Assembly (NCBI GenBank): GCA_914767715.1
Contig: OU612065.1
Span: 39,682,001 to 39,746,000 of the forward strand
DNA from: Membranipora membranacea
Lineage: Eukaryota; Bryozoa; Gymnolaemata; Cheilostomatida; Membraniporidae
Length of the DNA: 64,000 nt
Direction: 5' to 3'
The notes under the pieces were generated by a model. It was not told where the DNA came from, ran no database searches, and was given only the letters and a program-made list of their open reading frames with translations. The first letter of the stretch is position 1; each line of letters starts with the position of its first letter. A program made the translations under genes and the position numbers. Of this stretch, positions 5,971-58,640 are shown piece by piece.

Positions 5971-6834
5971 CACAATCTGGAACCTTGATGTGTATTTTGG
6001 TGTGCTGGATGACAGATGGTTTATCCAGAGTGTCATGTAGGTGTCACATGAGTGTGATTTTCTAACAACTCAACAAGAGTTTTGATGGTGTTCTAATTCA
6101 ACCTTGGCAGACCATGCATATAGTTGTTAACAGAGGGAATTTTCAGACCTACTGCTGCAAGTCAGTTATGGCGTTAGAAAATTGCATGATAGCTGTCCTA
6201 CTATTCTTATTGATGTATGAATTGACCTTTGTAATAGTACACCTTCTGATACATAGTATGTCATCTCCACATTATATCGTCATTTATTATTGTTACTTTT
6301 AAATACCTTGAAAGTTTGGCTCGGCCAACTTCGCTTTTAATATAACTCTCAAATATCAATATTTTGCTGCTATACAGGGGTTTTCAAGACATATTTTAAG
6401 AATAGGTTAATAGGTAAATTATAAGAAAACAGGAACGTAATGTGATTGTAAAATTTTGGACACTTTCCATCGATCTTTGATAGTGATCTTACTATTTTCT
6501 TGACAGCAGGCTACATTGGGATTTCTAAGTTGAGATTGATTCCTAATAATGTATAACATATATTATTGATGTGAGATGGTTCTCGAAAACATTTTCCACT
6601 GAGAACTGAATGGTATTCAGATTGCTTTGTTCCAGGCAGTGTACTGTTTACCCTTTTGATTAATTATGACACTTCCCACTTGTGGGTGAGCAAAATTCAT
6701 AAAATTCTAAAATCAAAACTACATACATATATACAACTTAGTTTTCGATGTGTGAATTAACTACATGGATTTACATTATCCATCATATGATTCAAATTGA
6801 ACAGAATTCATGATAAATTTTAATCTGGAATAAT
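5971..6834. other. Intergenic, nothing recognised
   Basis: AT-rich sequence between the inverted-repeat element and the conserved upstream region of lectin gene A. Only short open frames with random-looking composition are present. Confidence 0.4.
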
Positions 6835-7073: not shown

Positions 7074-8131
7074 ATGGACTACATGCACGGCCTTCCAGCT
7101 ACACAGATTTTATATAGAACAGCATTATACACAGTAAGTTGTACAGATATCGGTGGATAAAATCATCAGGCTATTTAGATCCGTAAACTCATCAATATAA
7201 CAAATATCTAATATAAGTTGTCATTTATCTGGAGTTTCACAAAATATTCGGGTTGCACATTTTGTAAACTCATTGTGATGGTTTTTATCAAGCGGTGCGT
7301 TTCTCAGAACACAACTATCAATAGAATAGAGATTATTTGGTACAAATTAAAGTGAAAGATTGAATGAGGTGTAGCATAAAATTTAGGTAGAAGAATATTT
7401 CAATAAAATAATCAATTTTCTGGAGCAACAAATGGACATTTCCATGATTTTTTTTGTATTGCTGTATTGTTAATAATCTTGTTTAATAACGTAACCTTCA
7501 AGGTCTTGTTTTTCTATCCAGGTATTGATATCGAATGCTTGTGGCAGCTCCAGTACAAGAACCAGGTTTATCTCTGTGAGTGGACTTACTCTACAGACAA
7601 ATATAGTAGAAAAAGAAGTCTGTGGCTACATGTGCTCTCGTCAAAACAACTGTGTGTCATTTTCTTGTGGCACTGAGAATCACCCAACCAGTTGTACCCT
7701 GTATGACACCTATCAAAAGGCAGGGAATGATACATTAGGTGTATATATGAAAGGTAAAACTTATTCTACTACGCTGAACATTTTAAGATAAGATGGCAGT
7801 TTATTGGTAAATCCATCAAAGACAACTTACAATTGCTTAAAAAGGTTCTGTGTTTATAGTAGCATAATATTTATCATTTAAAACTTTGATAGTGGTATGT
7901 ATTAGGGAACACAAAAAATTTATGCGTCAATCTTTGGCAATCTGTAGGAGTTTCTGATAAAAGAGTAGCACTGATTGTGAGAGTCTTCACAAAGACAGCA
8001 TTCAACAAAAGAGGTTCCAAGGCATTTTAAGGGAACTGTTGGAGATCCCCAAAATAGTTTTAATAAGCTACTGGCAGCCATCAGGATCAACGCATCTGAT
8101 TTTTCTTTTGGTAAATTTCAATGATGCACAT

Positions 8132-8178
<47 letters not shown>

Positions 8179-11100
8179 CATAACTTCAATTGCAGAGAAA
8201 AACTAAACAGCAAATGGTTTGTATTTTTGCAGTTCCAGAGGATATCTCACAAGAAAACACAACTCACCATCAGCAGCTTGTTATCCACATAGTCGACAGA
8301 GTGGATGATGTGAATTACTTTGTGACATTCGAGCAGCTCAATCTTAGTGACTGTGCGGACAGATGTTTCTCTACCTCAGGTTGTTTTGGATTTCACTTCT
8401 TACCATCGTTGGGAGATTGTCATTTACTGAACTACTCCTCAAACTATGAGCTAACTAGGTCACCTGGTTATGGTGAAAGTCTGACTTATCTTGTGGATAT
8501 CGATAGAAGTTTAGCTCTAGGTAAGTTTTTTCCATCATTTTCTTTCAATTGTTGAATGTAAAATCAATTGGAGTTTCAATTGATGTCAAATTATTTTGCA
8601 ACGATAGAATATGTTAAAATGCCAGGACATGTTTGTTTTATTTTGAAATGTTTATTTAATTGTGAGAGTTTTGTTTTTCGCTTTTTATTGCATGCATATA
8701 ATCATTTTGAGAATGTCTCTCACACAGCGACCAAAGAAAAGTGCAAGAGAAAACCTGACATGACATTATTTTTATAATTAAATGTGTCTGTATCGTATTC
8801 AATTACAGGAAAGACAAGCAACGCATCTTCAGTCTCTGGGAATAATGTTGAGCTGCACGGATCACACATTGGAAATGATGGTATAGCTGCTAACTACAAC
8901 AGCACAATGAGAACGAAATCGGAGAGGCAGCCATACTGGATGGTGGATCTTGGACATAACTGTACTATTTGGGGTGTATATTTCTTCAATGTGAACCTTG
9001 GTAATACTTTGTATTTACATTCATCACAATATTTATGAACAGTTACCAGAGAGTGTTGGGAGGACCCTTCGAACAGGAAAATTGCAAAGTTAGCTATATA
9101 TAAATAGAATATAAATGGTTATTGCACTGAATACATGAGCTGTGCTCGTTATATTTTTGCACAGTTAAGTGATGACATATCAATAGTAACATTCCCTGCT
9201 GCACACCGACATCAGTATTGCATAGGTAAAATCAATTCTATGATCATATTAGAAGTATGGCAGTAGGTTACTCGAGAGGTGTCACACCTAAACTATTGAC
9301 CAACTGGACAAGCAGGCTGTTGTTTTGAAACCCAAACATTACCAAAAGTCATCTTGACTTAGGCTGATCACATCACAGAGTAAGGATATACAGAGGGGAC
9401 ACTTCGATGATCGCTATAGTGCAGCTGTGGGCAACCTGTGGCCTTTTTGCCTGTGCCGCCCAATGAGTAATCTTTTGCGGCCTAATTGTGGCCTTATGCC
9501 CAAAAAAGTTATTAACACAACAATTTTGATTCCTCTTTCGTTATGTGGAAAACCAAGTATGTATAGCGCTCTGTAAGTACAAGATATTTCAAAATAGTGG
9601 CCATTCTGTATTATGCATGTAGCAAAGCTTCCCCAGCAACTCTAAACAAAGTGATAATTAATGTGGTACTGGTGCCAACAACTATCGTAAGTTGTTTTTC
9701 TTTCGAAATAACACGAAACAGTGACCTTGGGATGTTAAAATTACTGTTCTTTCATATAATAGATATTAGTATTTTTTGCAAAACCGTTTTGGACGAAAGG
9801 CAGATCTGTATCAGAAAGTTTCTTTGTTACAAGTGATCCTACATTATTGTTGAAATGTTCCATATTGCCTTTAATTTCAAAAAATTTTCCCCCTTGCAGG
9901 AGGGTGGGCGCTGAAAGATAAAAATTATGATGGGGTGCAAAAAATTTGATAAACCGATATTTCTGCTGATTCGATGGTTCTTGCAACATACAGCAGTCTT
10001 TACAAAAATCTTTTTTAGTATTAACGAATTTGAAATTCCCAAACGATCACGAAGTGTCCCCTCTGTATATCCTTACTCTATGATCACATAGTCCATTCGA
10101 ACCAGGACTAAATAGCTGAGATATTTTGTTTGTACAACATTGTCGTGTATGTACCTAAAACAACCCTCAAGTATGGTGTAGCTGCATGGATATGGAGGCT
10201 GTCGTCAGCAAATGCAGCTCCAGCTCGTAATGATATGCTTCAGTTGTGGCACTTATGACCCGGACACTTAGTCACCACAGAACTCTCTCTCTGATAGTAT
10301 CCTCACTGTGTGCTATTTCTGGTGTTGAGCAAGACTTTTTCTTTGATAGAAAAGGAATTTTTTGAGGAGCTAAATGGAGAATATACTTTTGACGAGGCTA
10401 ACCAATATTGTACTGATAATGGTGGATGGCTGGCAATACCAGAGACAGCTGAGGAGTGGTCTTATATCAAAAGGTAGAAACCCAGTACCTTTGCATTGAA
10501 ATCCATGCCATTCGGATAAGACCAAAAGCTTTAAAGTGTTACAAAAGTGATATGCCAATTACATTCACTTCCAGTTTCAGCAGTTTTTTTCTTCTTTGGT
10601 CTCTATTACCCTACTGACCTTAATCTTTCGCGGGCTTCTTATTCGCGGAGGGCACAACTCCAACCTTTTTCACTAGTCTTAAAGGGCAACCAAGGTTTCG
10701 CAGCAATGCATTAGTGGGTCATTCTGCTTGCAGGATAGCCTTGTGACATAGTCTATCTCTGCAGCACAGCAGTGGTGGCGCTGCCTTCCATCAAGAAAGG
10801 CAACTCCCAGGGTTCAAAGTTATGAGATATCAAAACCAGTGTTCCATTTAGGCCCAAATATTTCCAAAATATGGGTTTCCATTGTTTTCCCAATTTTGGT
10901 ACTCACACTAGGGGAATTTGTTCAAGCCCTATGCTGCAGAGACGAACGTATGCCTCAACAGTTCGCACATGCGCAGACTGTTAGTTGGTAGTAAATAATG
11001 TGCTAGGCAGCATCAGCTTTGCGCATGACGCGGCGAAAAACTCAAAGTAGTTGCTGACTCTAGGCTGGGTAACACCTCAGCTTAGGGGAGGTTCCAAGAC

Positions 11101-13543
11101 ATTGCTTTAATAATGATAGAGCACAGGCTAAATAATAATAGCAACAGGAAACTGCTCTGTGGTATTCTATTTTAGCTGAGTTTGAGTATCTGATGGATGA
11201 ATTGTGTCACAAGAATTCTGACTGAATAATCATCAGAATTAGATTTTGTCTTTTTCCCGATGCAGATGGTGCAATCTGCTATCAATCGATGAGAACTTGT
11301 TTTAAACCTTGATTGCCCTTTAATTATTCACAGATCTCAGGCTCGCGAATGTGAGAGGATAACTCCTCTATGGTGGTAGTAGTATTCTATTTTAAAAAAC
11401 CAAACTCCAATGGGATATGTACCTGTGATATCCCATTTTCATAGCAGAAGCTCTACACACTGAGCTATTCAGCCTAATGACATTTTGTATGTGTATTTAG
11501 CTACGTTTAATTATTCTGGTTTCTGTCATCAACCGCAAAATATTAAACCACTTGAAAACATAAGGTCAGTAGGGTAGTCCAATTTGTCGGTAGACTGGCC
11601 GCATTGAGCTGTAATTGGCATATGATTAATACTAAACCAATATATTATATAAAATTTGAACATTTCCACGTGTGATTTATGATTTAAAACATACAATAAT
11701 TGATATCCTCATTTAAAAAAAGAAAATTGCTAGCAATCATGAAAAACCACGAAAACAGGGTAAGCATCCATTTTTATGGTAATCGATTGTCTATTTCGCA
11801 TAGAATAGCCACAACTGAGGTACTCCTCAGTACCTCAAACTCAAGTGAAATCTGTGATGTTTTCTCTGTATCCCGCAGTCAGTATGAGGAAACAGCGAAG
11901 GATTTCTGGATCGGTTTGGAAGACAGACAAACTGAGGGCAAGTTTGTGACAATAAGGGGAGATGCACTGCCATATGACCGTATGTACTATCGCATGGGGT
12001 CTCAAATGAATTTTGTGTGCTAGGACTATTAGCTTGGTTCAGCATATGTATACTTTATTCAGCTAGTTTTGGGGAGAATGAATGTTAGCTGGCACCTAAT
12101 TTTCATGCGCTATCGTGAGAGCTTATTTGTCATAGAGAGGGTGATTAAATTTTGGCTAGTCATACATTCAACCGTTTCTAGCCTGTGTAAAAAGGCAGTA
12201 ATTTTCTACTGGAAATACTTTATCCTCTAAGCCTAAGGTATAATAACAATATGAAACCAACATTGTGGATGAGCTTTTCTGATACAAAATATAAAAAATG
12301 GTTTTCATTTCCGTTAATTGGATCTGATATAAGTTCATTATCGGACGAGATTCTTGTTATCAACTCAACTCTTTTTGCCTAAAATTAGCATCAAACTTTT
12401 CAGGACAAGCTGCTAAATCTGTTGCAATTTTTAAACACAAAATACGATCAAAATTGATCCAGTTATTGACAAAAAACTTTGATTTTGAACAGTAAATCAA
12501 TGATAGCATCGTTGCTTCTACACCTTCCAATTTTGTTACTTTGGCCACAATAAAATGCCTCAGTGCCTCAATGCTAATGCTCCATAAAGTGTTATGTCTA
12601 GGTTTATTATCAAGTCTATGTTATAGGCAGATAACTCCTAACTGTCTTTAGTTCTTTAGCTAGTAATTACATAGTACAGTGTGGTACAGTGAGATATTGC
12701 ATGCACTTCTGCGTTCTGTTTTGATACCATCACTTATGCTGTGCTTTGTTATCACATAGGTTAAAAAAGTAGACAGAGCAACTGAAATCTCACCCACGCT
12801 GTACACCTGGAAGTGATTTCCATCAAAAGAGAAATCATCATTATTATTTTGTTTGCACAAGTGTAGATTAAAACTGCAGGGTCCTATCTTCGGAGTGATG
12901 TCATAGGTATACAGCTGGAATGACGTGTTTATCATTTACAGTTTTTTCTGCTGAAGATTACTTCCCAAACAATTACCAAGGAGATCAGCATTGTATAGAG
13001 GTCGTAGATATTTTTGGAAAAACAAGACCTAATGACCAGACTTGCAATAAAAAAATTGGAGCGTTTTGTGAAAGGAATGGAGACGCATTTGGTAAGTTCG
13101 CCTTCTGCAGCTCGTCAATTCTGAGAGACAAAATAAGAATCTGCATCCGATAATCTCAGATTTAATATAACATTGATACATTTTTCTATATGATTTAAAT
13201 ATTAAATAATATTGTACTGAAGTGATGCAAATTTGGTGAAGCATACCGAGTATTGATCAACTCAGACAATATCTTGGCACTTCTAATGTGTTGTTTGATT
13301 GTAGATCCGATAGTGTACGTTGGCATAGCGGATAAAATAGATTATGTACAGAATGGAACATATCGAGCTCAGCTAGCTGATCATACAGTTTGCTCCAGAT
13401 TTGACGGTGTAATATCTGACGCCTCAGTGTTATTTTCATGTGAATTTCCTGTACAAGGGAGTCATGTCGTCTTTGAACTTTATCACATAGACAGTACAAG
13501 TCTGACATTCAGAGAGATAGAAGTACACGGCACATGTCCGTGA
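7074..13543 (+). CDS. Lectin gene A: secreted PAN-PAN-FTP protein with a nested C-type lectin domain (intact)
   Basis: Eight coding exons: 7074-7133, 7522-7753, 8233-8520, 8809-9000, 10350-10473, 11879-11979, 12942-13091, 13305-13543; 1386 nt, 461 residues, all open. Residues 1-28 form a signal peptide (hydrophobic up to VLISNACG). About 29-98 is a PAN/Apple-like module (VCGYMC...NNCVSF...SCTLY). 98-194 is a second one (DCADRC...GCFGFHF...DCHLL). 194-258 is the N half of an FTP/fucolectin domain (NDGIAANY...QPYWMVDLG). 258-383 is a C-type lectin domain (CTDNGGWLAIP, FWIGLEDRQTEG, QHCIE, NDQTC, GAFCER). 383-461 is the FTP C half (DPIVYVG...FSCEFPVQG...LTFREIEVHGTCP). Intron phases are 0,1,1,1,2,1,1. 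No membrane anchor, so it should be extracellular and glycan-binding. The first Glu of the usual EPN calcium site is replaced (FPNN), while E-x-C-x-E and ND remain. A possible AATAAA lies at 13806. Gene structure is well supported; ligand and function are inferred. Confidence 0.85.
8135..8175. repeat. (TA)n microsatellite
   Basis: An almost pure TA dinucleotide run in intron 2 of gene A, just upstream of the second PAN exon. Confidence 0.95.
9376..10082. mobile_element. TIR element inside intron 4 of gene A
   Basis: The ends are inverted repeats of about 35 bp: left AGAGTAAGGATATACAGAGG then GGACACTTCG; right is its complement (CGAAGTGTCCCCTCTGTATA then TCCTTACTCT). ATCACA-like bases flank both sides and could be a target duplication. 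The roughly 700-bp interior has no transposase. A block near 9420-9490 (GTGGGCAACCTGTGGCC) resembles ends of hAT-type elements, which suggests nesting. The element sits between the FTP N-half exon and the first C-type lectin exon and does not touch a splice site. Confidence 0.6.
12395..12628. repeat. Foldback-family arm (single) in intron 6 of gene A
   Basis: The stretch from 'GACAAGCTGCTAAATCTGTTG' to 'TCTAGGTTTATTATCAAGTC' matches the right arm of the foldback element at 18519-20283, including 'CCTCAGTGCCTCAATGC' and 'AATGCTCCATA'. A left arm was not found. This is a solo or truncated member of the family. Confidence 0.6.
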
Positions 13544-13883: not shown

Positions 13884-14610
13884 CAGCGTGAAAGGTGAAG
13901 AAGGTTTCTATAGTAGTCAGCCCTCTTCACATATTCAATTCTGATCATTTCCAGTTCACGATCCTATCTACTAGATCAACCATACCCTGTTTGCTCAGTA
14001 TACTGGTCAGATGTTAGATGAGACGATGCTATAGACAGTTTTCTGAGCTCGGATTAAGGCCTCAATTCGGAGTTGTCCTCTCTCCAGTTTGGTACTTTTA
14101 ACCCACACCGCATAGAAAAAACGTGCTGAAAAGAGGGTTATCTTGAAAACCGCTTATGGTAGGATCAAAATGATTTTTGATTCAGAATCTGAAAACTCAC
14201 ATGGACATAGTTGGGGATATAATTTTAGTATTTGGATAGTCAATAATATCATTTTCTGCCTGCTTTGCGGACAAATTGGCAGAATTTTTCATGAATTTCG
14301 TCACTAAAATTAAGATTTATCAACATTCAAGCCTCCAATGATTTGGAAACCCTGGGTTTTCAATGGTGCAGATTCATAATCAAAAATCATTTTTATCCTT
14401 ACATAAGCGGTTTTCAAGATAACCCTCTTTCAGCAGGTTTTTCCTATGCGGCGTGGGTTAAAAGTACCAAACTGGAGAGAGGACAACTCCGAATTGAGGC
14501 ATAAATCAGAGCTCAGAAAACTGTCTATTCTCATGCAAACGCCCAGTGCAGGAGAGATCTGTAACAATTGAGTTGTGGAAGCCAACAGGGACATATCTCG
14601 TTTCCTAGGA
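13884..14610 (+). pseudogene. FTP C-half relic split by a MITE
   Basis: This is homologous to the open relic at 60009-59794 on the minus strand (shared 'CATACCCTGTTTGCTCAGTA', 'GTAACAATTGA.TTGTGGAAG' and 'CTCGTTTCCTAG'). There the piece reads VAVVVNPIFTYSN...MLFSCERPVQARYVTIELW, an FTP C-half diverged from those of genes A-D. Here the frame is shifted near 13950, and the copy is cut in two by the MITE at 14032-14527. It lies 3' of gene A's own FTP C-half and is probably a remnant of an older lost paralogue. Confidence 0.6.
14032..14527. mobile_element. MITE with TAGACAGTTTTCTGAGCTC inverted ends, copy 1
   Basis: The ends TAGACAGTTTTCTGAGCTC and GAGCTCAGAAAACTGTCTA are perfect inverted repeats. 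They continue inward as CCTCAATTCGGAGTTGTCCT and as further arms (AACCGCTTAT, AAAATGATTTTTGATTC). TA at both junctions suits a Tc1/mariner-like target. There is no coding capacity. The homologous uninterrupted site at about 59870 on the minus strand proves the insertion. A second copy lies at 39107-39502. Confidence 0.85.
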
Positions 14611-15274
14611 ATGAAAAGTCCATGTTCCATATTAAGGTAGTCATACCATCTCTATGTCTGAGACAACTCATGATGGTCTGTATAAATCGAGAAACATTAC
14701 CCCTCTATGATCGATATCCTCTCTTACACAAAACAATCATCACATCATTTTTCGATCACAGTTTTCACTTAAATGAAGAGGAATCCCTTCAGATAGAGAT
14801 TATGCTATCCAATCCATTGACTGTGTAATAGGAATCTGTTGGTAGTTGTCCTCAAATGACCAAGCATTTTTGTATTCCTTTTGTCCCTGTCGTGAGAGTG
14901 AGACTGTTGTACTAAAGAAGTTTTATTATCTATCTGAACTATCTATTCTCACTCAAAAGGCTGAATATACAAAAGAGATGCCCTTATTACAAGTTTCTGG
15001 GGACTTAATTAGTTTGTGATTTAGCAGACCATATTGATTATATTTTACTCTTGGTATATATTGACTGTTGATTGTGGATTGATTCGTGAAACTTGTTTGT
15101 TGTTGGTGCTTGCATGGAATACAAATACAGTGGTTATATATATTTTTTTAATTCGAGTGAGACAAAATAACTTGTTTCATTTATTCATAAATCTGTGTTT
15201 GTTTATCGATAGATTGTTGATACTTCCACTCTTCTAATAGCTTTTGACTCCTGTATTATTGGTTTTTTCCCATT
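14611..15274. other. Intergenic A-B, nothing coding
   Basis: No exon recognised. The sequence is collinear, in inverse orientation, with about 58890-59790 beside gene D, which shows it is part of the inverted segmental duplication. Confidence 0.5.
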
Positions 15275-15515: not shown

Positions 15516-18500
15516 ATGAACTGCATGTATAACTTCCACACAACACAGATTTTATATAGTACCACGTGCTACATGGTAAGTTGTTCACATATCGGTGGAT
15601 CAATTTGTAAGTCTTTTTGGATCTGCAAACTAATTGATAATGCAAACGACCAAAATGGATCTCGGTTTTAAAGAGTGTAGTTATCATTTTTCTTGTATTT
15701 TCCACCTTATTCAAGGTGCAGTATCATACCTCAGTGTGATTGTGGTTGTTAGGATCAAGATGACTTCATCAAACTATGCAACAACAGGAAAAAATCTGTC
15801 ATGCAATTTGTCATCAGTTGGTGCAAAACTATGAAAACTGACTAATTGGAAGTAGACAATAGACATATTTTGTTAGAAAATCAAATGAAATAACAAAAGA
15901 AATCTGGTTTACAAAATGAATTGACTATAAAAATAGGGTAAATGATCGCTGGAACAAGAAATTAATAATTATTCACAATGGTATGGGCTTTACTTTGCTC
16001 TGAGTGAAACAAACAAACCCACTGAAAATTGAGATTTAACAGCGCGAACTGATAAAAAAATACAGAGAGATTGATAGGTATGTTGTTGCTGCATTGTAAA
16101 ACTTCTTTTTGAATAACGTATTCAACACAGCCCTTTTCAATCCATCCAGGTATTGATATCGATTGCTTGTGAGAGCTCCAGTACAAGAACCAGGTTTATT
16201 CCCATGAGTGGACTCACTCTGCAGACTAACGCGGTGCAAACAGAAGTATGCGGCTACATGTGCTCTCGTCAAAACAACTGTGTGTAATTCTCACACAGCA
16301 CTGAGAGTCGGATGGCTGGATGTATTCTGTACAAGACCTACCATTATGCAGGGAACAGTGAATCAAGTACTTATATGAAAGGTAAATATAATGCTTCCTG
16401 TGATGATATTTTGCCCAAATAGCAAATACTACAAATATACAGTTTAACTGATATGATATGGGACATTTTCTGGAAGCTCTCTGTGATCCTTTATATGGGT
16501 CCTGAGAGAGGGGGCAACTAACGGGATCAAAGCATCAGATAAAGGGTTGCCTTGCCTCAATGATATGTAGAATTTAAATATATAAGCGGTTATATGTAGC
16601 ACAAAAATGTATTCAAACTGTTTGTGATTTTACAGTTCCTGAGGAGATCTCACATGAAAACACAACTCACCATCAGCTGCTTGTTATACACAAAGTTGAA
16701 AGTGTTGGTGATATAAATTACTTTGTGTCATACGAGCCGCTCAATCTTAGTGACTGTGCAGACAGATGTTTCTCTACTCCCAGTTGTTTTGGTTTACATT
16801 TTATACCATCACAAGGAGGTTGTCACTTACTGAACTACTCCTCAAACTATGAGCTAACTAGGACACCTGGTTATGGTGATAGTCTGATATATCTTGTTGA
16901 CATTGATAGAAGTTTAGCAGTAGGTAAGTTATTATCAGGTGAGAAAGGCTGGAGTTTTGCATTATGGGAAGGTTTTGGATACAACTTCATTGGCTGGCTA
17001 TTATTCTTCTATCTCCTTTTTTCATATGGTTGCCAAGAACCATTCCGAAATTCAATGAAGATGATTTGTAATCAATGATTGTGACAAAGAAATCCTTGGC
17101 TCAGGGTGTTATGTACTTCTTCACAGCACCTTTAAAATAATAATATGTATGTTTTTTCTCTTACAGGAAAGGTTACCAACGCATCTTCAGTCTCTGGGAA
17201 TAATGTTGAGCTGCACGGATCACACATCGGAAATGATGGTATTGCTGCTAATTACAACAGCACAATGAGAACAAAATCAGAGAGGCAGCCATATTGGATG
17301 GTGGATCTAGGACATAACTGTACTATTTGGGGTGTAAATTACTTCAATCTGAATATTGGTACAGGTCAGAGCGTGATATCTGAATGTGTTTATTCGAATG
17401 TTCTTGCTGTGAATTCTCAGCAAAAGACATGAACTGATACAGACAAAAAGATTTGTGAGCAAAAAGTTTCTAACTTTTAGCCTCTGGAGGTACTATTTTT
17501 TATTTCTGGTATCTTTGTTAAATGTCATATAGTACCGTATTGATACCCGTATTTGAAGTATTTTGTTTGTCGCCGTCATATTCAAGTGACCATTTCTTTC
17601 TTACAGAAAAACTATTTTTTGAGGACCTAAATGGAGAATATACATTTGACGAGGCTAACCAATATTGTGCTGATAATGGTGGGTGGCTGGCAATACCAGA
17701 GACAGCTGAGGAGTGGTCTCATATGAAAAGGTTTGTACCCACTATCTTGTTTGCTCAATCAATTAAAGTTGAATTGTAATCCAAAACATTCAACTGAAAG
17801 AGAGAAGACAGAAAATTGATTATTTATTCCCAGATTGTTGACAGAGTAGCGAAATTGGTATATTAGCCTTGGAATCTTTATAGCGCAGCTTCTTTCTTTT
17901 AGAATAGGGAGTCTGGAATTAATTTAAGGACTCTTCACTACCACAGACTGAAGTGAATCTTTGTTATTTGTATTCCGCAGTCAGTATGAGGCAACAGAAA
18001 AACGTTTCTGGATTGGTTCGGAAGACAGACAAACAGAGGGCACATTTGTGACAATAAAAGGAGACGGGCTGCCATATGACGGTATGTACTCTGATATATC
18101 TATCTGATGAACGTGAACAATTGTGTGTGTCTTTGTGTTATTAGCTTGTCACAGCAGCATTGTTATATCAAGTAACAAGAAAAAAATACGCTGAGCAGTT
18201 GACTCTAAGTACAATGTACTGATAAGAATTGCAATTAAATATATTATGCTGCAAAATATCTGCCGTTTATAAAAAAAAGCAATCAAAAATTATGCTTATT
18301 ACTATATACACTAGTTTAGATATAGATTAATGTTATGAATCATGATAATGAGAGGATTTATTAAGCTGGCTAATTTTGAATCAATAGTGTTGATAGGGAA
18401 TCAGAGTAAACACTTCCAATTTAATCGTTATGATCAGCTGCCAAGTCCTTATCATGATTGGTCGATGGAGGATATTCACATATGATTGGGAGCATAGTTT

Positions 18501-18518
18501 TGAATATCAGGTATAGGG

Positions 18519-20283
18519 GCCTACCATAGACACTGTATATAGCTGAAGTGAGGCACTTAATTATGGTGACACGGCGTCACTGGAGGGTGTAGAAACAGTG
18601 ATTTTTACCCATAGCTATCATTGATTTACCTGTCCCAGCTCTGGTTAAATGTTGATAACTCAATTGGCTTCAATCGCAATTTAATTTTGAAAATCGTAAT
18701 AGATTCAGCAGCTTTTGGTGATCATTTTGATAGTCTGTTTAGCCTCATAGCTCAAATATTATCAAAAAAGCAAACTATTGAAAACGGTGCATAGACTTAA
18801 AGCTATAATTTCTTTTGCAGTTTCAGTCCTGAATAAATGCTTATATCTCAAACAATTTTGATGGAATTTTGAATTTGAAAATTGCTATCAATTCAGCAGT
18901 TTCTGGTGATCATTTTAATGGTCTGTTGAGCTTTGTAGCTTGAATATTATCAAAAAAGCAAGCTATTGAAAACGGTGCTTAGACTCGAAGCTATAATTTT
19001 TTTGCAGTTTCAGCCCAAGTTTATTTCCTTATCAATTTCGATGGGATTTTGAGTTTAAAAATTGCAATATATTCAGTAGCTTGTGGAGATCATTTTGATG
19101 GTCTGTTCTGCCTTTTAGCTCAAGTATAACCAGGAAGTTCAGGACTTTCTTCCTTGGAATAACTGAGGAAGCAAGCAATTGAATTTACTTGGTGAATACA
19201 CTATTACCAAAGAAATAACTAATTTCATCTTTGCTTTTTTTGAATGCTCTTTTGCTCATTTTTGACCCAGGCATGCACAATAAGAAATGTCATGACCTTG
19301 GACAAAATATCCACCAACATTATTGAAATGTGACCAACAGAGATAGTTGGAAGTAAACAAGTCAAGGCCGGACCTCGCAAAGCTTCAAATAAAATTGAAG
19401 TTCATAGTAGACGGTATTCTGTGTAGCTAATATAATGGTCACTCCGGTTGGTCAAAAGTAAAGGGAGACTTTCTGCCCCGGCAGCATTCTCCTCGTTCTT
19501 ACCTTATATTAGCAGCCTGATAAAACAAGCAACAGCTAAATCCGGTAATTCAGGAAATCATAATACATCAATTCTGACCACGAAACACAATCTTTTGAAC
19601 TTTTGAAATACATAAGTTTATTGTGGTCTGCTGGAGTCAGAAATATAGATAGCTACAGATTTCTAGATTTCTGTTTACACAGCAGTTGTAACACTCATCA
19701 AGCTAAGCACTATTTGTTCACAATGGATAAGCAAGGCCAGAGCGGATCTTCTGAACCACCAGTATGTAACTGTGATACAATGACTATACTTTCCTTTGCC
19801 TGCTATAGGTATTGTCCTTGCTTGTTCGGTTATAACAAGGAGGAAAGTCCTAAACTCCATGGTTATACCTGAGCTACAATGCTGAACAGACCTTCAAAAT
19901 GAGCCCCATAAGCTGCTGAGTCTATTGTAATTTTCAAACTTGAAATCCCATTAAAATTGTTTGGGATATAAGCATTTATTCAAGACTGAAACTGCAAAAA
20001 AATTTATAGCGTTAAGTCTATGCACCGTTTTCAATAGACTGTCAAAATGATCGACAGAAGCTGCTAAATTTATTGCAATTTTCAAACTTAAATTCCGATT
20101 GAAGCCAATTGAGTTATCAACTTTAGCCAGAGCAGGTAAATCAATGATAGCTATGGGTAAAATTCACTGTTTCGATACCCTCCAGTGACGTCGCGTCACC
20201 ATAATTAAGTGCCTCACTGCCTCAATGCGAATGCTCCATACAGTGTCCTGTCTAGGTTTATTATTAAGTCTATGGGCCTACCT
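18519..20283. mobile_element. Foldback element in intron 6 of gene B
   Basis: A long, interrupted palindrome. The left arm (18519-about 19110) contains GGCACTTAATTATGGTGAC, TTTTACCCATAGCTATCATT and GATTTACCTG; the right arm (about 19885-20283) carries the complements. The arms hold internal repeats: GAAAACGGTGC.TAGACT plus 'AGCTATAATTT' occurs at about 18780 and 18970 and inverted near 20010. The centre repeats the motif 'GAAAGTCCTRAACT' in inverted form. No protein is encoded. Outer ends share GGCCTACC. Partial relatives lie at 12395-12628, 20345-20500 and 55290-55470. Confidence 0.75.
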
Positions 20284-20344
20284 TTTTAATTTATATGCAC
20301 AGCTTTCTCAATCATTGCTAATATTGCCTGTGAACGTCCGTTGA

Positions 20345-20500
20345 ACAGCATTAATACATAAAAGACACCAACCTAGATAGGACACTATATGAAGCATTAG
20401 CATTGAGGCACTGAGGCATTTAATTGTTGGCGATGTAACAACGTCGAATGGTGTATTAGCATTTGGTGTTATCATTCAGTTGCAGCTCATGTACCAGGTT
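20345..20500. repeat. Foldback-family fragment, opposite orientation
   Basis: Contains AACCTAGATAGGACACTAT, GCATTAGCATTGAGGCACTG and GATGTAACAACGTCGAATGG. It is a complement-strand relative of the arm seen at 12395-12628 and closest to the piece at 55290-55470. Confidence 0.5.
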
Positions 20501-21838
20501 TTCCGTTGATTGATTTTGATAGTATTTTAAGTATATGTATTTATATATTCAAATATATTTAAGCTACTGAGAATAAACTATTCTTATCCACAGCTTTATT
20601 TTATCAATATTTGGTTAGGCTATCCTAATGATTATCTTGCTCTGCTGTGCTCTGCTTGTGTGTACAGTGAAATCTAGCTCTCTGAAGAGCAAGTTTTCTA
20701 GCTGATTTGCAGTAATTTGTTAGTAATTCACATGACACAGTATTGAAATGATTCTGCCTTGAGCTGGTAAAACACAGTAACTGAATTTTTTTTTTTAAAT
20801 TCAATTTTTTGTATTATTGGATTATTTGTAATCATCGACCTCTGTTGTAAAATATATTTTGCACTTGACATATCCTAAACCTACTTTAAAAGAAAATCAA
20901 AATTCGGAATTTGTATATCTATTTGTTTGATTTTGAATTGCCTCACATATAAAATTACAAGTTTCGCAGATACTGTGTTCTGATTGCTCAGGGCAGTATC
21001 TTTATGCACTTGCGCATTTTTCTGATACCTCACTTATGCTGTGCTTTGTTATCATATAGGTCGAAAAAGTACATAGAGACAACTGAAATCCCACATGGGC
21101 TGTACACCTGGAAGTGATTTTCATCAAAAGAGATTCATCATTATTATTTAGGTTGCACTAAGTGTAGATTAAAACTGCAGAGTCTTATCTTCGGAGTGAT
21201 ATCATAGGTATACAGCTGGAATGATGTGTTTTTGTTCTTTTGTAGTTTTCACTGCTGAAAATTACTTCCCCAACAATTTAAAGGGAGAACAGCACTGTGT
21301 AGAAGTAATAGATTGGGGAGGAATAGTGGCTAATGACCAGAACTGTGATAAGAAAAGAGGTGCCCTTTGTGAGAAAAAGGGGAATGAATTTGGTAAGTTT
21401 GCCTTCCGCTGTCAAACATATGAAAGTACACTTTTTTATATGTTTGCATGTGATTTTAAAAAAATAGATATTTTCCTTAGAACATTTAAAAAGAATGATC
21501 ATATTGTATAAAATATTAAAGAAGTGTATGTAAAATCCTACATGGCATTGAGTCAGTCAGATAATTTACTCACTTGTTTTATGTAATATTTGATTGTAGA
21601 TCCGATAGTGTACGTTGGTATGGCGGATAACCTAGAATATGAACAGAACAGAACTTATCGAGCTCAGCTAGCTGGTCATACAGTTTGCTCCAGATTTGAT
21701 GGAATGATATCTGAAGACTCTGTGTTTTTCTCATGTGAATTTCCTTTACAAGGGAGCCAGGTAGTCTTAGAACTTTATCACAAAGATGGAACAAGTCTGA
21801 CATTCAGAGAGATAGATGTCCATGGTACATGTCAATGA

Positions 21839-24080: not shown

Positions 24081-27000
24081 ATGGAATGCGAGTATAACTT
24101 TTTCGCAATACAGCTTCTATATATTACAACACTGTTCTATGCGAGTACTACTGTTATCATGATCAGTCTATAAGATATGTAAACTCAATAATTTCACAGA
24201 AATTCAACTGTTGTAAGATTCTTTTTTGTGTATTTCAACTCATGCAGGCTGTTGATGTGTGCCAATTTTGATGAATTTTACCAAACATGCCCTGCACAAA
24301 TCTATGATTTTATCATTTACAAGCATATGGGATCTAGATAACACCTTTAATTACGGAGAAAAAAACTTCATCGTAGTGATGTTACATAACAAAGCATCAA
24401 ACGCGCTGACTAAGGTTTGGTAGCCTGAATTTATCTGAACAATTGGGATGTTTTTAAGAATCTTGCATACAGTAGACATTAATAGGCTAGGCGCACCAGA
24501 GTAAAGATTTTTTTCTTCGTTTATTACCCTAAAAACCTTCCTGTCAAATGAAGTATCCTTCATGTCCCTCATTTTTCTAACCAGGTATTTACATCGATTG
24601 CTTGTGTGAGCTCCAGTACAAGAACCAGGTTTATCCCCATGAGTGAACTTACTCTTCAGATTGATGCAATTGAAACAGAAGTATGTGGCTACATGTGCTC
24701 ACTCCAGAGCGACTGTGTGTCATTCTCTAACAGCAATGAGAGTCAAGGGACCAGATGTTTCCTGTACAATCAGTATCCAACCACAGCGAATAACATATCA
24801 GGTGTATTTATGAAAGGTAATATGAATTCAGCCTATTCAGTTCTGTGGTTAGTGAGTTTGCCACCTAACCCGCCGGTTGTGGGTTTGAATCCTGATTGGA
24901 AACCAAAGCTATATGGACAATGTCTGACATGACTTTAAATCATGGAGGTCTTTGGTATGTATAATCGAATTCTGAATACGGATAAAAAAACCGCCTGCAT
25001 GAAAAAGCTCCATAGCAGGTATGCTACACGTTGGGTTACGGCTGCCAAAAAACTTCCTATGTGACCCTGACAGGCAGCAATGTCATGATATAAATAATTG
25101 CAAAGTTTTCAAGACTTGCTTGCAATACTCAAGCTCGGTCCTGACAGATTTGGACAAGTCTCAGGATGAATGTTTCTTATTTGTGTTTTGCTAGTTTCAC
25201 TGATGCGCGGGTGTTTCTTATATCACAGAAATCTGATACACCTTGTTAGTGTGTTTGCAGTTCCTGAGGAGATCTCACATGAAAACACAACTCACCAGAA
25301 GCTGCTTGTTATCCACAGAGTTGATAGTATGGGTGATGTGAATTACTTTGTGACATATGAGCAGCTCAATCTTAGTGACTGTGCGGACATATGTTTCTCT
25401 ACTCCCGGTTGTTTTGGTTTTCACTTCCTACCTTCACAAGGATATTGTCACTTACTGAACTACTCCTCAAACTATAAGCTAACTAGGTCACCTGGTTATG
25501 GTGGTAGTCTGATATATCTCGTTGATATTGATAGAAGTTTAGCACTAGGTAAGTTGATTTCAGTGAATTATTTTTGACTAAGTTTAAATACATAGTGCCT
25601 TTTTGAGTACTTCTTGTCATTGAGGGAAGAAGTATGTAATATGTAATACTTATGCCAGGGTATAATGATATTGCGACAGTGTATTACTATACGATGGAAG
25701 GAAATGTGGATCATTTAACATGTTTCTACTTTTGTGCTATGGGTAATTGCATTTGATATTGAACTGTTTTGTCTCAAACAATTTAAAGGCAGGTGCATTT
25801 ATATTAAATCTGTGATTGTGAGAAGGCAAGGGAAGGTAAGGTTAATAATTGCATTGATTATAATAGGTAGATCAATGAGTATACCACAATGCAATGTTCT
25901 GGAATTCCCAATGAGATCGGGTCAGTGATTTGTATTGCGATTAACTTGCGTGGTCTTCCTGGAAGTTACAGGATGAAATTCATTCTAATATGCCTATGAG
26001 GGAAACTCACTTCTAATTACAGGAAAGGCTAGCAATGTTTCTTCAGTCTATGAAAATGATGTTCGACTGCGTGGATTACACATCGGAAATGATGATATCA
26101 CTGCTATCTACGACAGCACAATGATGACTAAATCAGAGAGGCAGCCATATTGGATGGTAGATCTTGGACTTGACTGTACCATCTGGGGTGTAAATTTCTT
26201 CAACCAACACCTAGGTACCAGTTAGTGTCTTGTCTTTAATTAAGTGCAGGGGGGAAGGTAGAGGTATGAGACCATAAACTCCTGATTTAAATTCTTAGTG
26301 TTCCAAAACCCTGAAAACTTTGATCATTACTGATCATTGTGGTCGATATTACTGATATTATTGTTGTGGAGAGGTTGTCAGCATAATTGCTGTGATTATA
26401 GAAGTTGTGAGTAGGGAGAAGCCAGGGTATATCCCTTAAGACGAGAGCAGGAAGCAAACTCAATAGCAAGTAATTTCTTTACACAATAGGACTTTATTGA
26501 CTGCCCCTGACTGAAGCTAGAGGCATGTATGGTAGCTTGGGAATTAATCAATAGCACTATGAAAACTCCATGTAAAGGGTCCGGGCTCAATATTCTGAAC
26601 TCAGTTTTGATTTTGGATGTTTTGTAAAATTATTTATTTGGTACCGGGTATGAAAGAAAATTCAAATTTTTCTTTTCAATTTTGACCACTCCAAGTTTGT
26701 TAGCCACCTTTAAGTAGGCTCAAACTTTGTTTACAAATTCATTTGTTAACTGAAGCCTGAAACGAATGGATTGCTACATTTTGAAGGACTTCCTTTTATT
26801 TAAATCTTTGACACAAAATTAATAAAGCGTCACTTTCTTCATACAGAAAATAATTTTTTTGAGGGGCTAAATGGAGAATATACTTTTGACGAGACTAACC
26901 AATATTGTGCTGATAATGGTGGATGGCTGGCAATACCAGAAACAGCTGAGGAGTGGTCATATATAAAGAGGTGTGTACCTACTATCTTGTTTGGACATGA

Positions 27001-27657
27001 AAAATAGGATGGATGTATATTAATTCAAATCAAACTGAAGTCACAAGTTACAAGTAAAACTGCAAACTGTCAGTCAGCTATAGAAATGTTGATGTTGCGC
27101 CAAAAGATTTTTGCTGCGAGATCTCTTTCCCACAAGAAAAAAACTAGAGTAAACTTTTAACTACTTAGATGACTTTTCAGTTTGACTAGCAGATATCTCT
27201 AATCTATGCTCTGTTACCTGTAGTCTGCGTCAGACAGCTGATACTGACTTTTGGATCGGTTTGGATGACAGAAAAACTGAGGGTACTTTTGTGACTATAA
27301 ATGGAGACCCGATGCCGTATGATAGTAAGTATAAGCTCAGATGTAATCATTCGATGAGCCTTAATTGTCCTGTATATATCAGTGTTATTGGAAATGTACA
27401 TTGTGGAAATGAAATAATATACTTTGTAGGCAACTTTTTACTTTGCAGTCCTTATGTCTCCCTGTATCGAGTTCTGACAAATTAAAATCTTGGGTTGTCA
27501 TGAGAAATACTTTGATTGTGAAGGAATATTTAATTAAAAATCGTAATGAGAGCTGAAAAATTATAGTGACAAATAACAGATTTTAATTATAGATCATGAT
27601 TGGAAACGAATTGGTATAGTATTCCGAAAATCAAATTTTCTGCTAATCTGTTTTAAC

Positions 27658-32815: not shown

Positions 32816-34577
32816 TTATAGCAGCAAACAGGATAATTTCTATATCAACATCAGACGCAATAAGAACATCCAATATTATAGCTAGCATCATCATCAGTAC
32901 ACTCAACCTCGACTCGAGGACACACAGTTACCAGCTAGTGCATATCACCTCGAATCGAGGACAGGCAAATATATGCAAATCTAAATTCTATTCTTAATAC
33001 CGGTGCCACCCTAACGCCATATCCGTGACAACCATGACAATGCAGTTAAGGTGGCGCCAACAGAGACAATTCAGAATTAGCATTGTCGTATACACAGCAG
33101 TAAACAGGAGAATTGTCTATACCAACATCCGACACAATAACAACATCCAATATCTTTGCCAGCATCATCATCAGTACACTCAAACCTTGACTGGAGGACG
33201 CGCAGTTACCAGCCGGTGCATATCACCTCGAATTCGGGATACGCAAATATATTCCAATCTAAATTCTATTCTTAACACCGGCGCCAACAGAGACAATTCA
33301 GAATTAGCAACTCTAGTGGCCGATCAACCCACGCTTGCGGCCGATCAACCCACGCTTGCGGCCGATCAACCCTCTTTTTGCGGCAATCGAGAAATGTGTT
33401 TTATTCTTGTTTTTTGCTGGTGTACATCAGCAGTTTTTCTAATGTGTCTGAAACCATGCTATATAAGAGCATGGTTCACCAATGGAAAGCATGATGATTG
33501 ATCTGTTTGGCGACCTTCTGGTCGACAAGCAGCGCTCTTTGTTTGCAACTTCATTTGGAGACAGGTCAGTTTTTTTTAAAACATGAAAGTTTTACAGTTT
33601 TTATTATAATATTTTCATTTATTGTACAGTAGTGATATTTATAGGGAAATAGAACTCGCCTTATTATTTAATAATGACACAGTATAACATTTGGTTGGAT
33701 TATCTATACCATCAACTAAGCCAGCATGCATGGCATCATTGACTAGAAAGTATGACTTGTAGAAATAAGACATGCATTGATAAGTTGAATTGTGTTTGAT
33801 GTTAAACTTGATAAGAATTAAAAGGCATGCTCTTGAGTCAAGTGTTATATCTTGAAATAAATGAGATCACAATTATATAAATAAGTCAGTGTCACATAGT
33901 GAGCATCATCATACCGAGCTCGTGAGCACAGATCTCAGTAGCGGAGAGTTAATGTGGTGACTCCATAACCCGGAATCCCACACAACTATGACGGAATACA
34001 GCACTGTAAAGGGGTCATTGTTTCTTCTAAAGGACTATTAGAACCTAATGATCGGGCCTGCTTGGTGAGATTTGGCGCTCTTTGTGAGAGAAAGGGGAGT
34101 GCATCAGGTTTGTTTGCCAACTTTAGCTTGTCAATCATAGAGAAGGAGCTTTTTGTATGACTTGTTTTAAAGCCAAAGTTAGAATCTGGAAATGTCTGGC
34201 TGTATAATGCACAATATATTCGTACCCGGAATATGAATATTTCAAACTATGTTCATTAAAATCTCAAATATTAGGTCACATGGTACACTTCTGTGATATT
34301 TTTTACGGAAGACTAAACATTCAGATTGCTAGTTACAAACAATCCTGTTGTCACACATAACAGTCTTAACTTTCATAGCTAGAGAGACAGACTGTCCTAT
34401 ATATTGTGTTGGTCACAAGAAAAAAGTATATCAAATGAACCTGATTCTCTAACTTAGCTAAACTGCACAAATAAATGAATGGCATATCATCTTAAATCAA
34501 ATATAATCCGCAAATGATTTAGTTGATAAATAACAACAAAATGTCACCATGAAGTGAGTGTAAAAATACTGACTAGT

Positions 34578-54085: not shown

Positions 54086-57000
54086 TCAGGGACATGTGCC
54101 GTGTACATCTATCTCTCTGAATGTGAGGCTTGTACCAGTTTTGTGATAAGGTTCTAAGACGACATGAGTTCCTTGTACAGGAAAGTCACATGAAAATAAC
54201 ACTGAGTCTTCAGATATTACACCGTCGAATCTGGAGCAAACTGTATGACCAGCTAGCTGAGATCGATATGTTCCATTCTGTACATAATCTAGTTTATCCG
54301 CCATACCAACATAAACTATCGGATCTACAATAAAATATCACATAAAACAAGTGAGTAAATTATCTGACTGGCTCAAAGACCTGTACAATTTTGCATGCAC
54401 TACATTGACATTTCATACAATATTGTATTCACTTCAGGTCTTCTAAAGAGATTTTTTATTATCATATACTAAGATACAAAGAGAGTACTTTCATATGTTT
54501 GATAGCAGAAGGCAAACTAACCAAATGCATTCCCCTTTTTCTCACAAAGGGCACCTCTTTTGTTATCACAGTTCTGGTCATTTGCCACTATTCCTCTCCA
54601 ATACCAATATATTAATTCTATTACTTCTATACAGTGCTGCTCTCCCTCCCAATTGTTTGGGAAGTAATCTTCAGCAGTGAAAACTACAAAAGAACAGAAC
54701 AATTATTCCAGCAGGATACCTGTGACATCACTCTGGTGGCCCAGTAGCTTTAATCTATACCCAATGCAAACAAGATAATAATGATGATTCCTCTTGGGAC
54801 AAAAATTGTATGAATTTTGTTAGCTCTGTTTACGTCTTAGACCTTGTGATAGCAAAGTGACGATATAAGAACAAAATGCATAAATGTGTAATCATACTTC
54901 AATACTGTTGATTGAAAAAAATTGAGGTTGATTAAAAGGTTGATTAAAATCGGATGTCTTATCACTCGCCACATCCCGAAGCGTGGGCGGCGAAATTGTA
55001 GTGACTTAATAGCGAGGCCGCAATATCTGCGCCAATTGGCTCTCTGTTTGCAGGCAGGTCGGAGCACACCTGGGAGCCAACAAAACCCCAGTAGTCGGTG
55101 GACTGTGTGATTCGAACCCACAACCTTCAACATGTGTATGTTGAAGGACGGCGCTCTAACCAACTGAGCAACCTCCTACTCCTATAAGTGCCATGTAAGC
55201 TATTAGCGTAAAGCATTCTGCAGACCAGCTAGAAAACTTTCTCTTCAGAGAGCTAGAAATCCAGCAAGGTCATTATGTCTTGATTTTCCACTGCGCACAC
55301 AAGCAAAATCGATCAAGTTATCAACAAAAACCCTGGTATTGATCTGCAACGTGATGATAACACCAAGGTATTGAAACGTCGAACGTAATTACTTTCCCCA
55401 TAGTTAAATGCCTCAATGTTAATGCTTCATATTATAGTGTCTGTCTTTGAGTCAATGGGAAAAACCTATGTTCATGGTGAAAATTATTTTGTTTCTTTTT
55501 ATTGTTGATGCTATTCAACAGATGTTCACATGCAATATTAGCTATGTCTACATTTTGTGAGGTTTTATTATTGTATTTTAATGATTGAGTAATTTGAAGA
55601 TATAACCCCATATTAAAAACTAAGCTTCAAGTCATAGGTGAATCTCCTCAGTTGGCCAATCATGATTAGGACCGATAGCCAATCATAACAATGAAAATCA
55701 GAATTGTTAAACCGATTCCCTTTCAACTGTATTGATTCAAAATTACCGAAGCAAATAAAATCCTCTAATAATCATGAGTTATATATTAATCTATAACCAG
55801 CGTATAAAATAATGATGACAAATTCTGATTGTGTTTTTTTATTAATGGCAAATGTCTTGTATAATACACTTTTTAATCACAATCCTTATCAGTACATTGT
55901 GTTTATTACTCGATATATCAAGGCTGCCGCTGGTAGTAGCACCAAGACTCATTTAGGTCCATCAGATAGATATATCAGAGTACATACCATCATATGGCAG
56001 CCCGTCTCCCTTAATTGTCACAAATGTGCCCTCTGTTTGTCTGTTTTCCAAACCAATCCAGAAATGTTTCCCTGTTGCCTCATACCGACTGCGGAATACA
56101 AATAACAGAGATTCACTTCTGATTTTGGTACTGAAGAGTCCCTAAATAATTCCAGACTCCCGTTTCTAATAGAAAGAAGCTGCTCTATAAAGATCATTAC
56201 CAGGCTAATTATACCAATTATGGGAATGAATTTGTCAAATAATAAAATTTCTTTTTTCTGTCATCACAAATAGCAAAAACCCTAAAGACTTTAGTTGAAT
56301 GTTTTAGATTGCAGTTCAACTTAAATTGATTGACCAAACACAATATTTGGTTCCTACCTTTTCATATAAGACCACTCCTCAGCTGTCTCTGGTATTGCCA
56401 GCCACCCACCATTATCAGTACAATATTGGTTAGCCTCGTCAAATGTATATTCTCCATTTAGGTCTTCAAATAATTCCTTTTCTGTAAGAAAGAAAAAGTC
56501 ACTTAAATAATACGGCGACAAGTGAAACTTTGTAATTTGTAAAACTATCCTTCAAATACGGGTATCAATACGGTACTATGACAGATAACAAATATACCAG
56601 AAATAAAAGCTAATTATATAACGAACCTCAAGAGGCCAAAAGTTTGAAATTTTTTGCTCACAAATCTTTTTGCTCAGGGAGTCTTATGACACTTTGTTGT
56701 ATCAGTTCATGTATATTACTGAGAATTCACAGCTAAAACATTCAATCACACACATTCAAATATCAAGCTCTGACCTGTACCAATGTTCAGATTGAAGAAA
56801 TGTACACCCCAAATAGTGCAGTTATGACCTAGATCCAACATCCAACATGGCTGTCTCTCTGCTCTAGTTCTCATTGTGCTGTTGTAGTTAGCAGCAATAC
56901 CATCATTTCCGATGTGTGATCCATGCAGCTCAACATTATTCCCAGAGACTGAAGATGCATTGGTAACCTTTGCTGTAATAGTAAAACATACATATTATTA

Positions 57001-58640
57001 TTTTAAGGTATTGTGAACAAGTACATAACACCTTGAGCCAAGGTTTTCTTTGTATTTGCAATCACTCAACAATTATAAATCCTTCTCATCAAATTTTTGA
57101 ATGTTTCTTGGCAACCATATGAAAAAAGTAGTTATAGAATGATAGCCTCCAATGCAGTTGTATCATACACCTTCCCAAAATGCAAATAAACCCCAGCCAG
57201 CCTTTCTCACCTGATAAGAACTTACCTACTGCTAAACTTCTATCAATATCTACAAGATATATCAGACTATCACCATAACCAGGTGTCCTAGTTAGCTCAT
57301 AGTTTGAGGAGTAGTTCAGTAAGTGACAACCTCCTTGTGAAGGTATGAAATGAAAACCAAAACAACCGGGAGTAGAGAAACATCTGTCTGCACAGTCACT
57401 AAGATTGAGCTGCTTGTATGTTACAAAGTAATTCATATCACCCACACTGTCAACGCTGTGGATAACAAGCAGCTGATGGTGAGTTGTGTTTTCTTGAGAG
57501 GTCTCCTCAGGAACTGCAAAAACACAAACAGTTTGAATACATTTTTGTGGTACATATAACCCCCCCCCCCCCTCCCACATATAAATTCTACATCTCGTTT
57601 ATGCAAGGAAATCCTGAGTCTGATGCTTTGATCCCGTTAGTTGCCCCCTCTCTCAGGGCCCATATAAAGGATCACGGAGAGCTTTCAGAAAACAGAAAAT
57701 GTCCAATAACATATCAATTAGACTGTATATTTATAGTATTTGCTATTTGGGCAAAATTTCATCACAGGAAGCATTATATTCACCTTTCATATAAGTGTCG
57801 GATTTGATGTTCCCTGCATATTGGTATGTGTTGTACAGAATACATCCAGCCATCAGACTCCCGTTGCCGTGTGAAAATGACACACAGTCGTTTTGACGAG
57901 CGCACATGTAGCCACATAGTTCTGTTTGCACTACGTTAGTCTGCAGAGTAAGCTCATTCATCGGTATAAACCTTGTTCTTGTACTGGAGCTGCCACAAGC
58001 AATTGATATCAATACCTTGATGGATAGAAAAGGGCTATGGTGGATACTTTTTTCGAAAAAAGATTTACCATGCAGCAACAACATACCTATCCATCTCTTA
58101 TTGTTTTTATCAGTTCGTGCTGTAAAATCTTAATTTTCAGTTGTGTAACTCAGAGCAAAGTAAAGCCCATACCATTGTTTATATTATTAACTTCTTGTTC
58201 CAGAGATCATTTACCCTATTTCTACAGTCTCCTCCTTAGTCAATTCATTTTGTATACCAGATTGCTGTTGTTCTTTAATTTGATTTTGTACCAAAATATG
58301 TCTACTTCTGATAAGTCAGTTTTCATAGTTTTGCACCAACTGATGACAAATTACAAATTGACAAATTTTCTACTGTTGTTCCTAGTTTGATGATGTCATA
58401 TGGATCCTAAAAACCACAATCACACTGAGGTATGATGCCGCACTCTTAATAAGGTTGGAAATACAACAGAAATGATAACTGCAATCCTTAAAAATGAGAA
58501 AGTTCTTGGCCGTATGCATTACCAATTAGTTTGCAGATCTAACCAAGTAGACTGACAAATGGAGCCACTGAATAACTTACCGTGTAGAACGCGGTACTAT
58601 ATACAATCTGTATAGTGGGGAAGTTATGCATGCAGTTCAT
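54086..58640 (-). CDS. Lectin gene D: intact paralogue in inverted orientation
   Basis: Exons on the minus strand: 58640-58581, 58015-57784, 57513-57226, 56972-56781, 56481-56358, 56088-55988, 54683-54522, 54324-54086; 1398 nt, 465 residues, no stop. Domains as in gene A: signal peptide (hydrophobic up to VLISIACG), PAN (CGYMCARQNDCVSF), PAN (DCADRCFSTPGCFGFHF), FTP N-half (CWMLDLGHNCTIWG), C-type lectin (CTDNGGWLAIP, FWIGLENRQTEG, EQHCIE, NDQNC, GALCEKK) and FTP C-half (LTFREIDVHGTCP). It is closest to gene B in PAN1 and in introns and flanks. Exon 7 has five extra codons (IELIYWYW region) before GIVAND, and its donor reads GTTAGT. The B-type premature stop is absent. Intron 6 carries a SINE. 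The product is predicted secreted. Confidence 0.85.
54928..55184 (-). mobile_element. tRNA-derived SINE, copy 3, in intron 6 of gene D
   Basis: Complement of the SINE head (CGCTCTAACCAACTGAGCAA) and body (GCAGGCAGGTCGGAGC, ATCACTCGCCACATCCCGAA). Same orientation as gene D. The equivalent intron of B lacks it, so it inserted after the duplication, unless B lost it. Confidence 0.8.
55290..55470. repeat. Foldback-family fragment in intron 6 of gene D
   Basis: Contains AATGCCTCAATGTTAATGCT, 'TATTATAGTGTCTGTCTTTG' and 'GATGATAACACC', relatives of the foldback arm at 12395-12628 and, inverted, of 20345-20500. Confidence 0.5.

Follow-up and report, generated by a model that had tools for sequence, protein, structure and literature searches.

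Exons for a C-type lectin domain inside the F-type lectin domain of a bryozoan gene family

Exon shuffling is usually pictured as the end-to-end addition of domains. Here we describe a gene family of the bryozoan Membranipora membranacea in which exons for a complete C-type lectin domain (CTLD) lie between the two halves of an F-type lectin (fucolectin-like, FTP) domain. The family was analysed in a stretch of 64,000 nucleotides (C1:39682001-39746000, hereafter the window) and across the genome, comprising 339,339,785 bases in 18 contigs.

The closest described systems are found among F-type lectins and collectins. The F-type lectins AAA, from eel, and MsaFBP32 (PMC5712786) have in common with the nested domains the FTP profile and the residues W61, D64, C108, C124, and E147. 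They differ from the nested copies, which carry a CTLD of 124-129 residues in place of the loop CDR4 and possess neither the fucose-binding triad nor the C50-C146 bridge. Both lectin types are present in one polypeptide in Drosophila furrowed/CG9095 and in Hydra proteins, and the CTLD of CG9095 is devoid of the canonical residues (PMC5712786). The accessible text of that source describes the two domains as combined and makes no mention of nesting, whereas here one lies inside the other. The same text describes oyster sperm bindin, whose F-lectins recombine through an intron in the middle of the domain (PMC5712786); there, F-lectin sequences are recombined, while here a different domain entered. 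A C-type lectin nested in an F-type domain was not found in the literature searched, among the matches listed and with thin coverage of subscription journals.

Gene structure and distribution of the nested family

We propose, with a probability of about 0.8, that the genes described here form a tandem bryozoan family encoding proteins that are probably secreted and contain two PAN domains and an FTP, which would hold a complete CTLD inside its CDR4 loop. Four copies, named A to D, are located in the window. Their exons are denoted PAN1 and PAN2, FTPn and FTPc for the N- and C-terminal FTP halves, and CTL1 to CTL3 for the three CTLD exons that make up the cassette.

7074..7133, + strand: gene A, likely first coding exon with an inferred start, from ATG to a GTAAGT donor, 60 nt, phase 0
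7522..7753, + strand: gene A, PAN1 (PAN/Apple-like), from splice sites and open frame
8233..8520, + strand: gene A, PAN2, matching Pfam PAN_1 at 3.2e-06
8809..9000, + strand: gene A, FTPn, phase 1 at its end
10350..10473, + strand: gene A, CTL1, phase 1 to 2
11879..11979, + strand: gene A, CTL2, with FWIGL, phase 2 to 1
12942..13091, + strand: gene A, CTL3, phase 1 to 1
13305..13543, + strand: gene A, FTPc with TGA stop, from splice sites and open frame
15516..21838, + strand: gene B, exon order as in A, exon 1 at 15516-15575
16150-16381 and 16636-16923, + strand: gene B, PAN1 (with a TAG at 16285-16287) and PAN2
17167-17358 and 21600 to a TGA at 21836-21838, + strand: gene B, FTPn and FTPc
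17607-17730, 17981-18081, and 21246-21392, + strand: gene B, CTL1, CTL2, and CTL3
24585..27324, + strand: copy C, with PAN1, PAN2, FTPn, CTL1, and CTL2 only
54086..58640, - strand: gene D, complete and open, exon 1 at 58581-58640
57784-58015 and 57226-57513, - strand: gene D, PAN1 and PAN2
56781-56972 and 54086-54324, - strand: gene D, FTPn and FTPc
56358-56481, 55988-56088, and 54522-54683, - strand: gene D, CTL1, CTL2, and CTL3

The model of gene A was built from splice sites and open reading frames. Genes A and D display the exon order PAN-PAN-FTPn-CTL1-CTL2-CTL3-FTPc, with GT-AG introns and matching phases (1|1-2|2-1|1-1|1 across FTPn, cassette, and FTPc). Counted from PAN1 and including the stop codon, they run for 442 (A) and 446 (D) codons without an earlier stop. 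The PAN_1 family of Pfam matches one stretch in gene A and two in gene D. The cassette measures 375 nt in A, 372 in B, and 387 in D. The exon coordinates, the cassette phases (1-2, 2-1, 1-1), and the shared order in A, B, and D are as an earlier note on this DNA had read them, with the qualification that B has a stop in PAN1. Because of this TAG, gene B may be a pseudogene. For copy C, no joined FTP C-half was found within the window.

Eleven loci of the nested type were found in the genome, and six of them are undamaged where modelled. Outside the window, the following loci have all seven exons and are open from PAN2 to the stop:

C1:39617159 region: gene C1F
C5:16.62-17.20 Mb: genes C5a, C5b, and C5c

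These four genes were modelled without first exons, and C5a, C5b, and C5c without an established start of the PAN1 exon. Together with A, B, and D they form the set of seven models used below, from which copy C and the disrupted loci C5d, C5e, and C5f were excluded as disrupted or incomplete. The spliced frame is open from PAN2 to the stop in every model, and all 42 introns are GT-AG. The cassette is phase-symmetric (1-1), 372-387 nt long, and divisible by three in all seven.

An alternative is that the CTLD exons constitute a separate gene within an intron of the FTP gene, spliced independently, and the intron upstream of CTL1 is indeed long in A (1349 bp). We consider this very improbable. 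In all seven models, the donor and acceptor phases fit those of the FTP exons. The open stretch upstream of CTL1 contains no in-frame ATG in A or D and the one in B is not shared, and read-through past CTL3 stops at a different position in each of A, B, and D.

Rates estimated by the Nei-Gojobori method between A and C5a give ratios of nonsynonymous to synonymous substitution (dN/dS) of 0.16 for FTPn, 0.19 for the CTLD, and 0.20 for FTPc, at dS values of 0.94-1.46. Over all blocks in eight gene pairs the ratio ranges from 0.12 to 0.47. Purifying selection acts on both the FTP and the lectin exons, and the C-terminal FTP half is constrained as firmly as the other blocks.

Identity of the two domains and the sister genes

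The three middle exons encode one complete C-type lectin domain, as had been claimed. The match to Pfam Lectin_C (PF00059) is unambiguous, with an E-value of 3.7e-16 over profile positions 3-107 of 107. In an alignment of A, D, C1F, and C5a, the four conserved cysteines and the WIGL motif of collectin-type CTLDs are present in each copy, and the best solved relative of the inserted domain is a collectin-type protein, mannose-binding protein A (MBP-A, 7e-10).

The outer exons are less easily recognized on their own. The halves of gene A match Pfam F5_F8_type_C_2 at 0.02-0.08 and the joined halves of gene D match no Pfam family. Among structures in the PDB, the nested halves find only the eel lectin (1k12, E 0.46), and a profile of four nested copies finds AAA (1k12) at 0.047 and nothing better. 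Their identity becomes clear through sister genes. The genome contains 29 matches to FTPn, 11 in the nested-type loci and 18 elsewhere, and 14 of these 18 candidate sisters were modelled (L047, L048, L049, and L057 were left out). In all 14, nothing but an intron parts the two FTP halves; it is in phase 1, measures 118-798 bp, and lies in the same loop. No CTLD exons were matched in the sister loci at E 0.05. Seven of the eight sister FTPs scanned match F5_F8_type_C_2 (PF22633), at 2e-06 to 0.0084, with one over the cut-off; one of the eight gives no match. The highest-scoring of them lies at C11:18.573 Mb and finds FBP32 at 4.2e-06 and AAA at 3.7e-05.

A profile of 14 rows, combining four nested copies and ten sisters, yielded six matches in the PDB, all to F-type lectins or fucolectin-related proteins: FBP32 (5.3e-15), Sm-hPAF (2.4e-09 and 6.5e-09), AAA (7.7e-09), and two fucolectin-related proteins. 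Through this profile, an FTP/F-lectin signature extends over about 140 residues. The assignment of the outer exons as FTP halves by hidden Markov model searches, which the earlier note had proposed, holds by way of the sister and combined profiles, whereas the Pfam scans of the nested halves taken singly are weak for A and without a match for D.

It could be argued from these low scores that the outer exons are two unrelated short exons rather than one F-type lectin domain, in which case nothing would be nested. The sequence evidence is strongly contrary, and this reading is barely credible: in the sisters, one half follows directly on the other in the exon order, and the matches to fucolectins extend over the two. 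With the halves joined, identity between gene A and its four closest sisters is 45-49%.

Insertion site, binding motifs, and origin of the cassette

Alignment with AAA and FBP32 places the cassette in CDR4 of the F-lectin. In AAA this loop holds R79 and D81 and, by motif spacing, R86 (PMC5712786). Instead of a contiguous FTP with a short CDR4 loop, the nested genes have the 372-387 nt cassette at this position. None of the seven nested FTPs retains the basic triad H52, R79, and R86 (AAA numbering), and R86 and the two cysteine columns of CDR4 are gaps, with the CTLD in their place. Residues W61, D64, C108, C124, and E147 are present in all seven. For the cation motif of AAA (D38-G39), the register of the alignment is uncertain.

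The full triad is found in 5 of the 14 sisters, and just one of these has an acidic residue (E) at the D81 position. The four sisters most similar to A by identity have no H52, and R79 is kept in one. As these four already do not have the triad histidine, the comparison suggests that the FTP pocket probably decayed before the insertion and that the loop was then reused.

Two clusters of PAN-FTP sister genes, at C9:6.17-6.21 Mb and C11:18.56-18.57 Mb, are the source of all five modelled sisters that keep the triad.

The canonical calcium-sugar motifs of CTLDs are EPN or QPD together with WND (PMC7618208). In contrast to collectin-type CTLDs, all seven nested domains have FPN, YPN, or SPN for EPN and PND or AND for WND, which makes canonical calcium-dependent sugar binding by the nested CTLD doubtful. 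The proposal of two possible glycan sites in the composite lectin is unsupported, since the triad is absent from all seven nested FTPs and the cassette fills the loop of R79 (and, by spacing, of R86). The N and C termini of a CTLD are close together (PMC7618208), so that insertion at a hairpin would be sterically reasonable.

A search of the genome for CTLDs gave 39 matches. Those outside the nested loci include CTLDs split over three exons, located on C2 near 9.877 and 9.903 Mb. Among them, the domain C2_d2 shares the phases of the nested cassette, reads YPN and AND at the two motifs, and shows 47-57% identity with the seven nested CTLDs. Compared with eight single-exon CTLDs (eight loci of the 147 Lectin_C matches listed) and MBP-A, it is 19-27% identical over the main alignments. 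In a CTLD tree, from which the C2 domains d1 (where simple exon joining gave stops) and d3 are excluded, branches are long and 1 of 14 inner branches is starred, so the closeness of C2_d2 is supported only loosely. On its phases and identity, C2_d2 is a donor-type module and a candidate for the direct donor.

The C2 region from 9.876 to 9.905 Mb (L087, L088) comprises a gene or genes encoding several CTLDs of three exons each; no closer relatives of the inserted domain were found. A lone third CTLD exon is present in the window at 33954-34106 (+), and likewise at C2:25096027 and C2:25087838 (L083, L084). By eye, L083 is near-identical to 33954-34106 and lies near repeated units, as if the exon had been carried by a mobile repeat.

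When 22 FTP rows are placed in a tree, a single branch (100/99) separates the seven nested domains from the 14 sisters and AAA. The derivation of the nested genes from a CTLD-less ancestor leans on parsimony, as one group has the CTLD and all the others that were modelled are without it. Read most simply, the data point to insertion of the cassette, apparently once, into a pre-existing phase-1 intron, followed by duplication on C1 and C5. That a CTLD cassette of phase 1 entered a phase-1 intron of an FTP gene, as put forward in the earlier note, is well supported: all 14 sisters modelled have an empty site, the nested genes form one group, and a CTLD of the same phase occurs elsewhere, on C2.

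The symmetry of the cassette also bears on the possibility that its exons are optional, so that the same gene yields the nested protein and also a PAN-PAN-FTP protein without the CTLD. Skipping would keep the frame in all seven models, the cassette being divisible by three and phase-symmetric, and CTLD-less PAN-FTP genes do exist in the same genome. We nevertheless regard optional use as unlikely, since without the cassette the loop would fall 4-6 residues short of that in the four closest sisters, and since the CTLD exons are constrained by purifying selection to about the same degree as the FTP exons.

Several observations, besides the low scores of the nested halves on their own, weigh against a CTLD nested in a folded FTP. 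Five of the 11 nested-type loci (B, C, C5d, C5e, and C5f) are damaged or incomplete. The root of the FTP tree is poorly placed, with AAA on a long branch, and serves for drawing only. The fold-stabilising R131 of AAA is an arginine in only two of the seven nested domains, neither cysteine of the C50-C146 bridge of AAA is kept in nested or sister genes, and the FTP loop of the nested genes is the shorter one, by the 4-6 residues noted above. On the other side, the gene structure and its conservation, the empty sites, the grouping, and the identity of the loop can be read directly from the DNA.

Genes without the insert (14 modelled sisters), genes that have it (six undamaged), and a module of the donor type thus occur together in the genome. 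Because all three coexist, the change from plain F-lectin to nested lectin is directly readable. The site of insertion is the ligand-binding loop itself, and the family would be a natural model for the grafting of a domain onto a binding loop.

Proposed protein, related proteins, and neighbouring features

Under the nested reading, one spliced mRNA would join all exons, and the FTP halves of the probably secreted protein would together form a single jelly roll, with the CTLD held between them. Devoid of the fucose triad, the FTP may act as a pedestal or scaffold, with recognition passed to the displayed CTLD, while the PAN domains may mediate protein contact or oligomerisation. The role would probably be in innate recognition or surface mucus, and the genes are candidates for a recognition family of this colonial animal. 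More tentatively, and with considerable doubt, the family may represent a head-swap, in which the triad was lost, a whole CTLD was spliced into the binding loop, and the jelly roll became its pedestal; the cassette might then be alternatively spliced, switching the gene between two binding proteins.

Secretion of the gene A product is plausible, given the conserved exon with ATG and donor upstream of PAN1 (7074-7133). This exon is open, ends in a donor, and has counterparts by alignment at 15516-15575 in B and 58581-58640 in D. Another candidate for the first exon of gene A, at 6168-6230, was dropped, as it had no convincing counterpart in B, D, or the outside loci.

The full gene A product found no match in the protein collection at 0.001. 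The nested profile retrieved one protein of 148 residues and the FTP profile nine of 82-113 residues, and no full-length nested protein is among these ten. Six of them (P0001-P0004, P0006, and P0009) resemble, by eye, exons of loci in this genome, while P0005, P0007, P0008, and P0010 match no locus examined here. P0005, P0007, and P0008 are pieces of FTP C-halves with an RA-NPS(V/I)R stretch as in the C9 and C11 sisters, and possibly come from other species with the same exon split.

Further fragments related to the family occur in the window. Broken pieces of FTP C-halves of the CTLD-less sister type adjoin A and D, at 13975-14031 and 14510-14623 (+) and at 59776-59988 (-); two of the three contain stops, and all are probably what is left of sister genes within this cluster. 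At 60375-60553 (-) there is an FTP C-half of the nested type, broken by a stop and a frame change and joined to no gene. The start of another gene, with two sister-like PAN exons, spans 61471-63092 (+), with no FTP half found before the end of the window. Finally, 14031-14529 and 39105-39503 contain a repeat of 160-230 bp, about 90% identical in both orientations, resembling a small inverted-repeat element.

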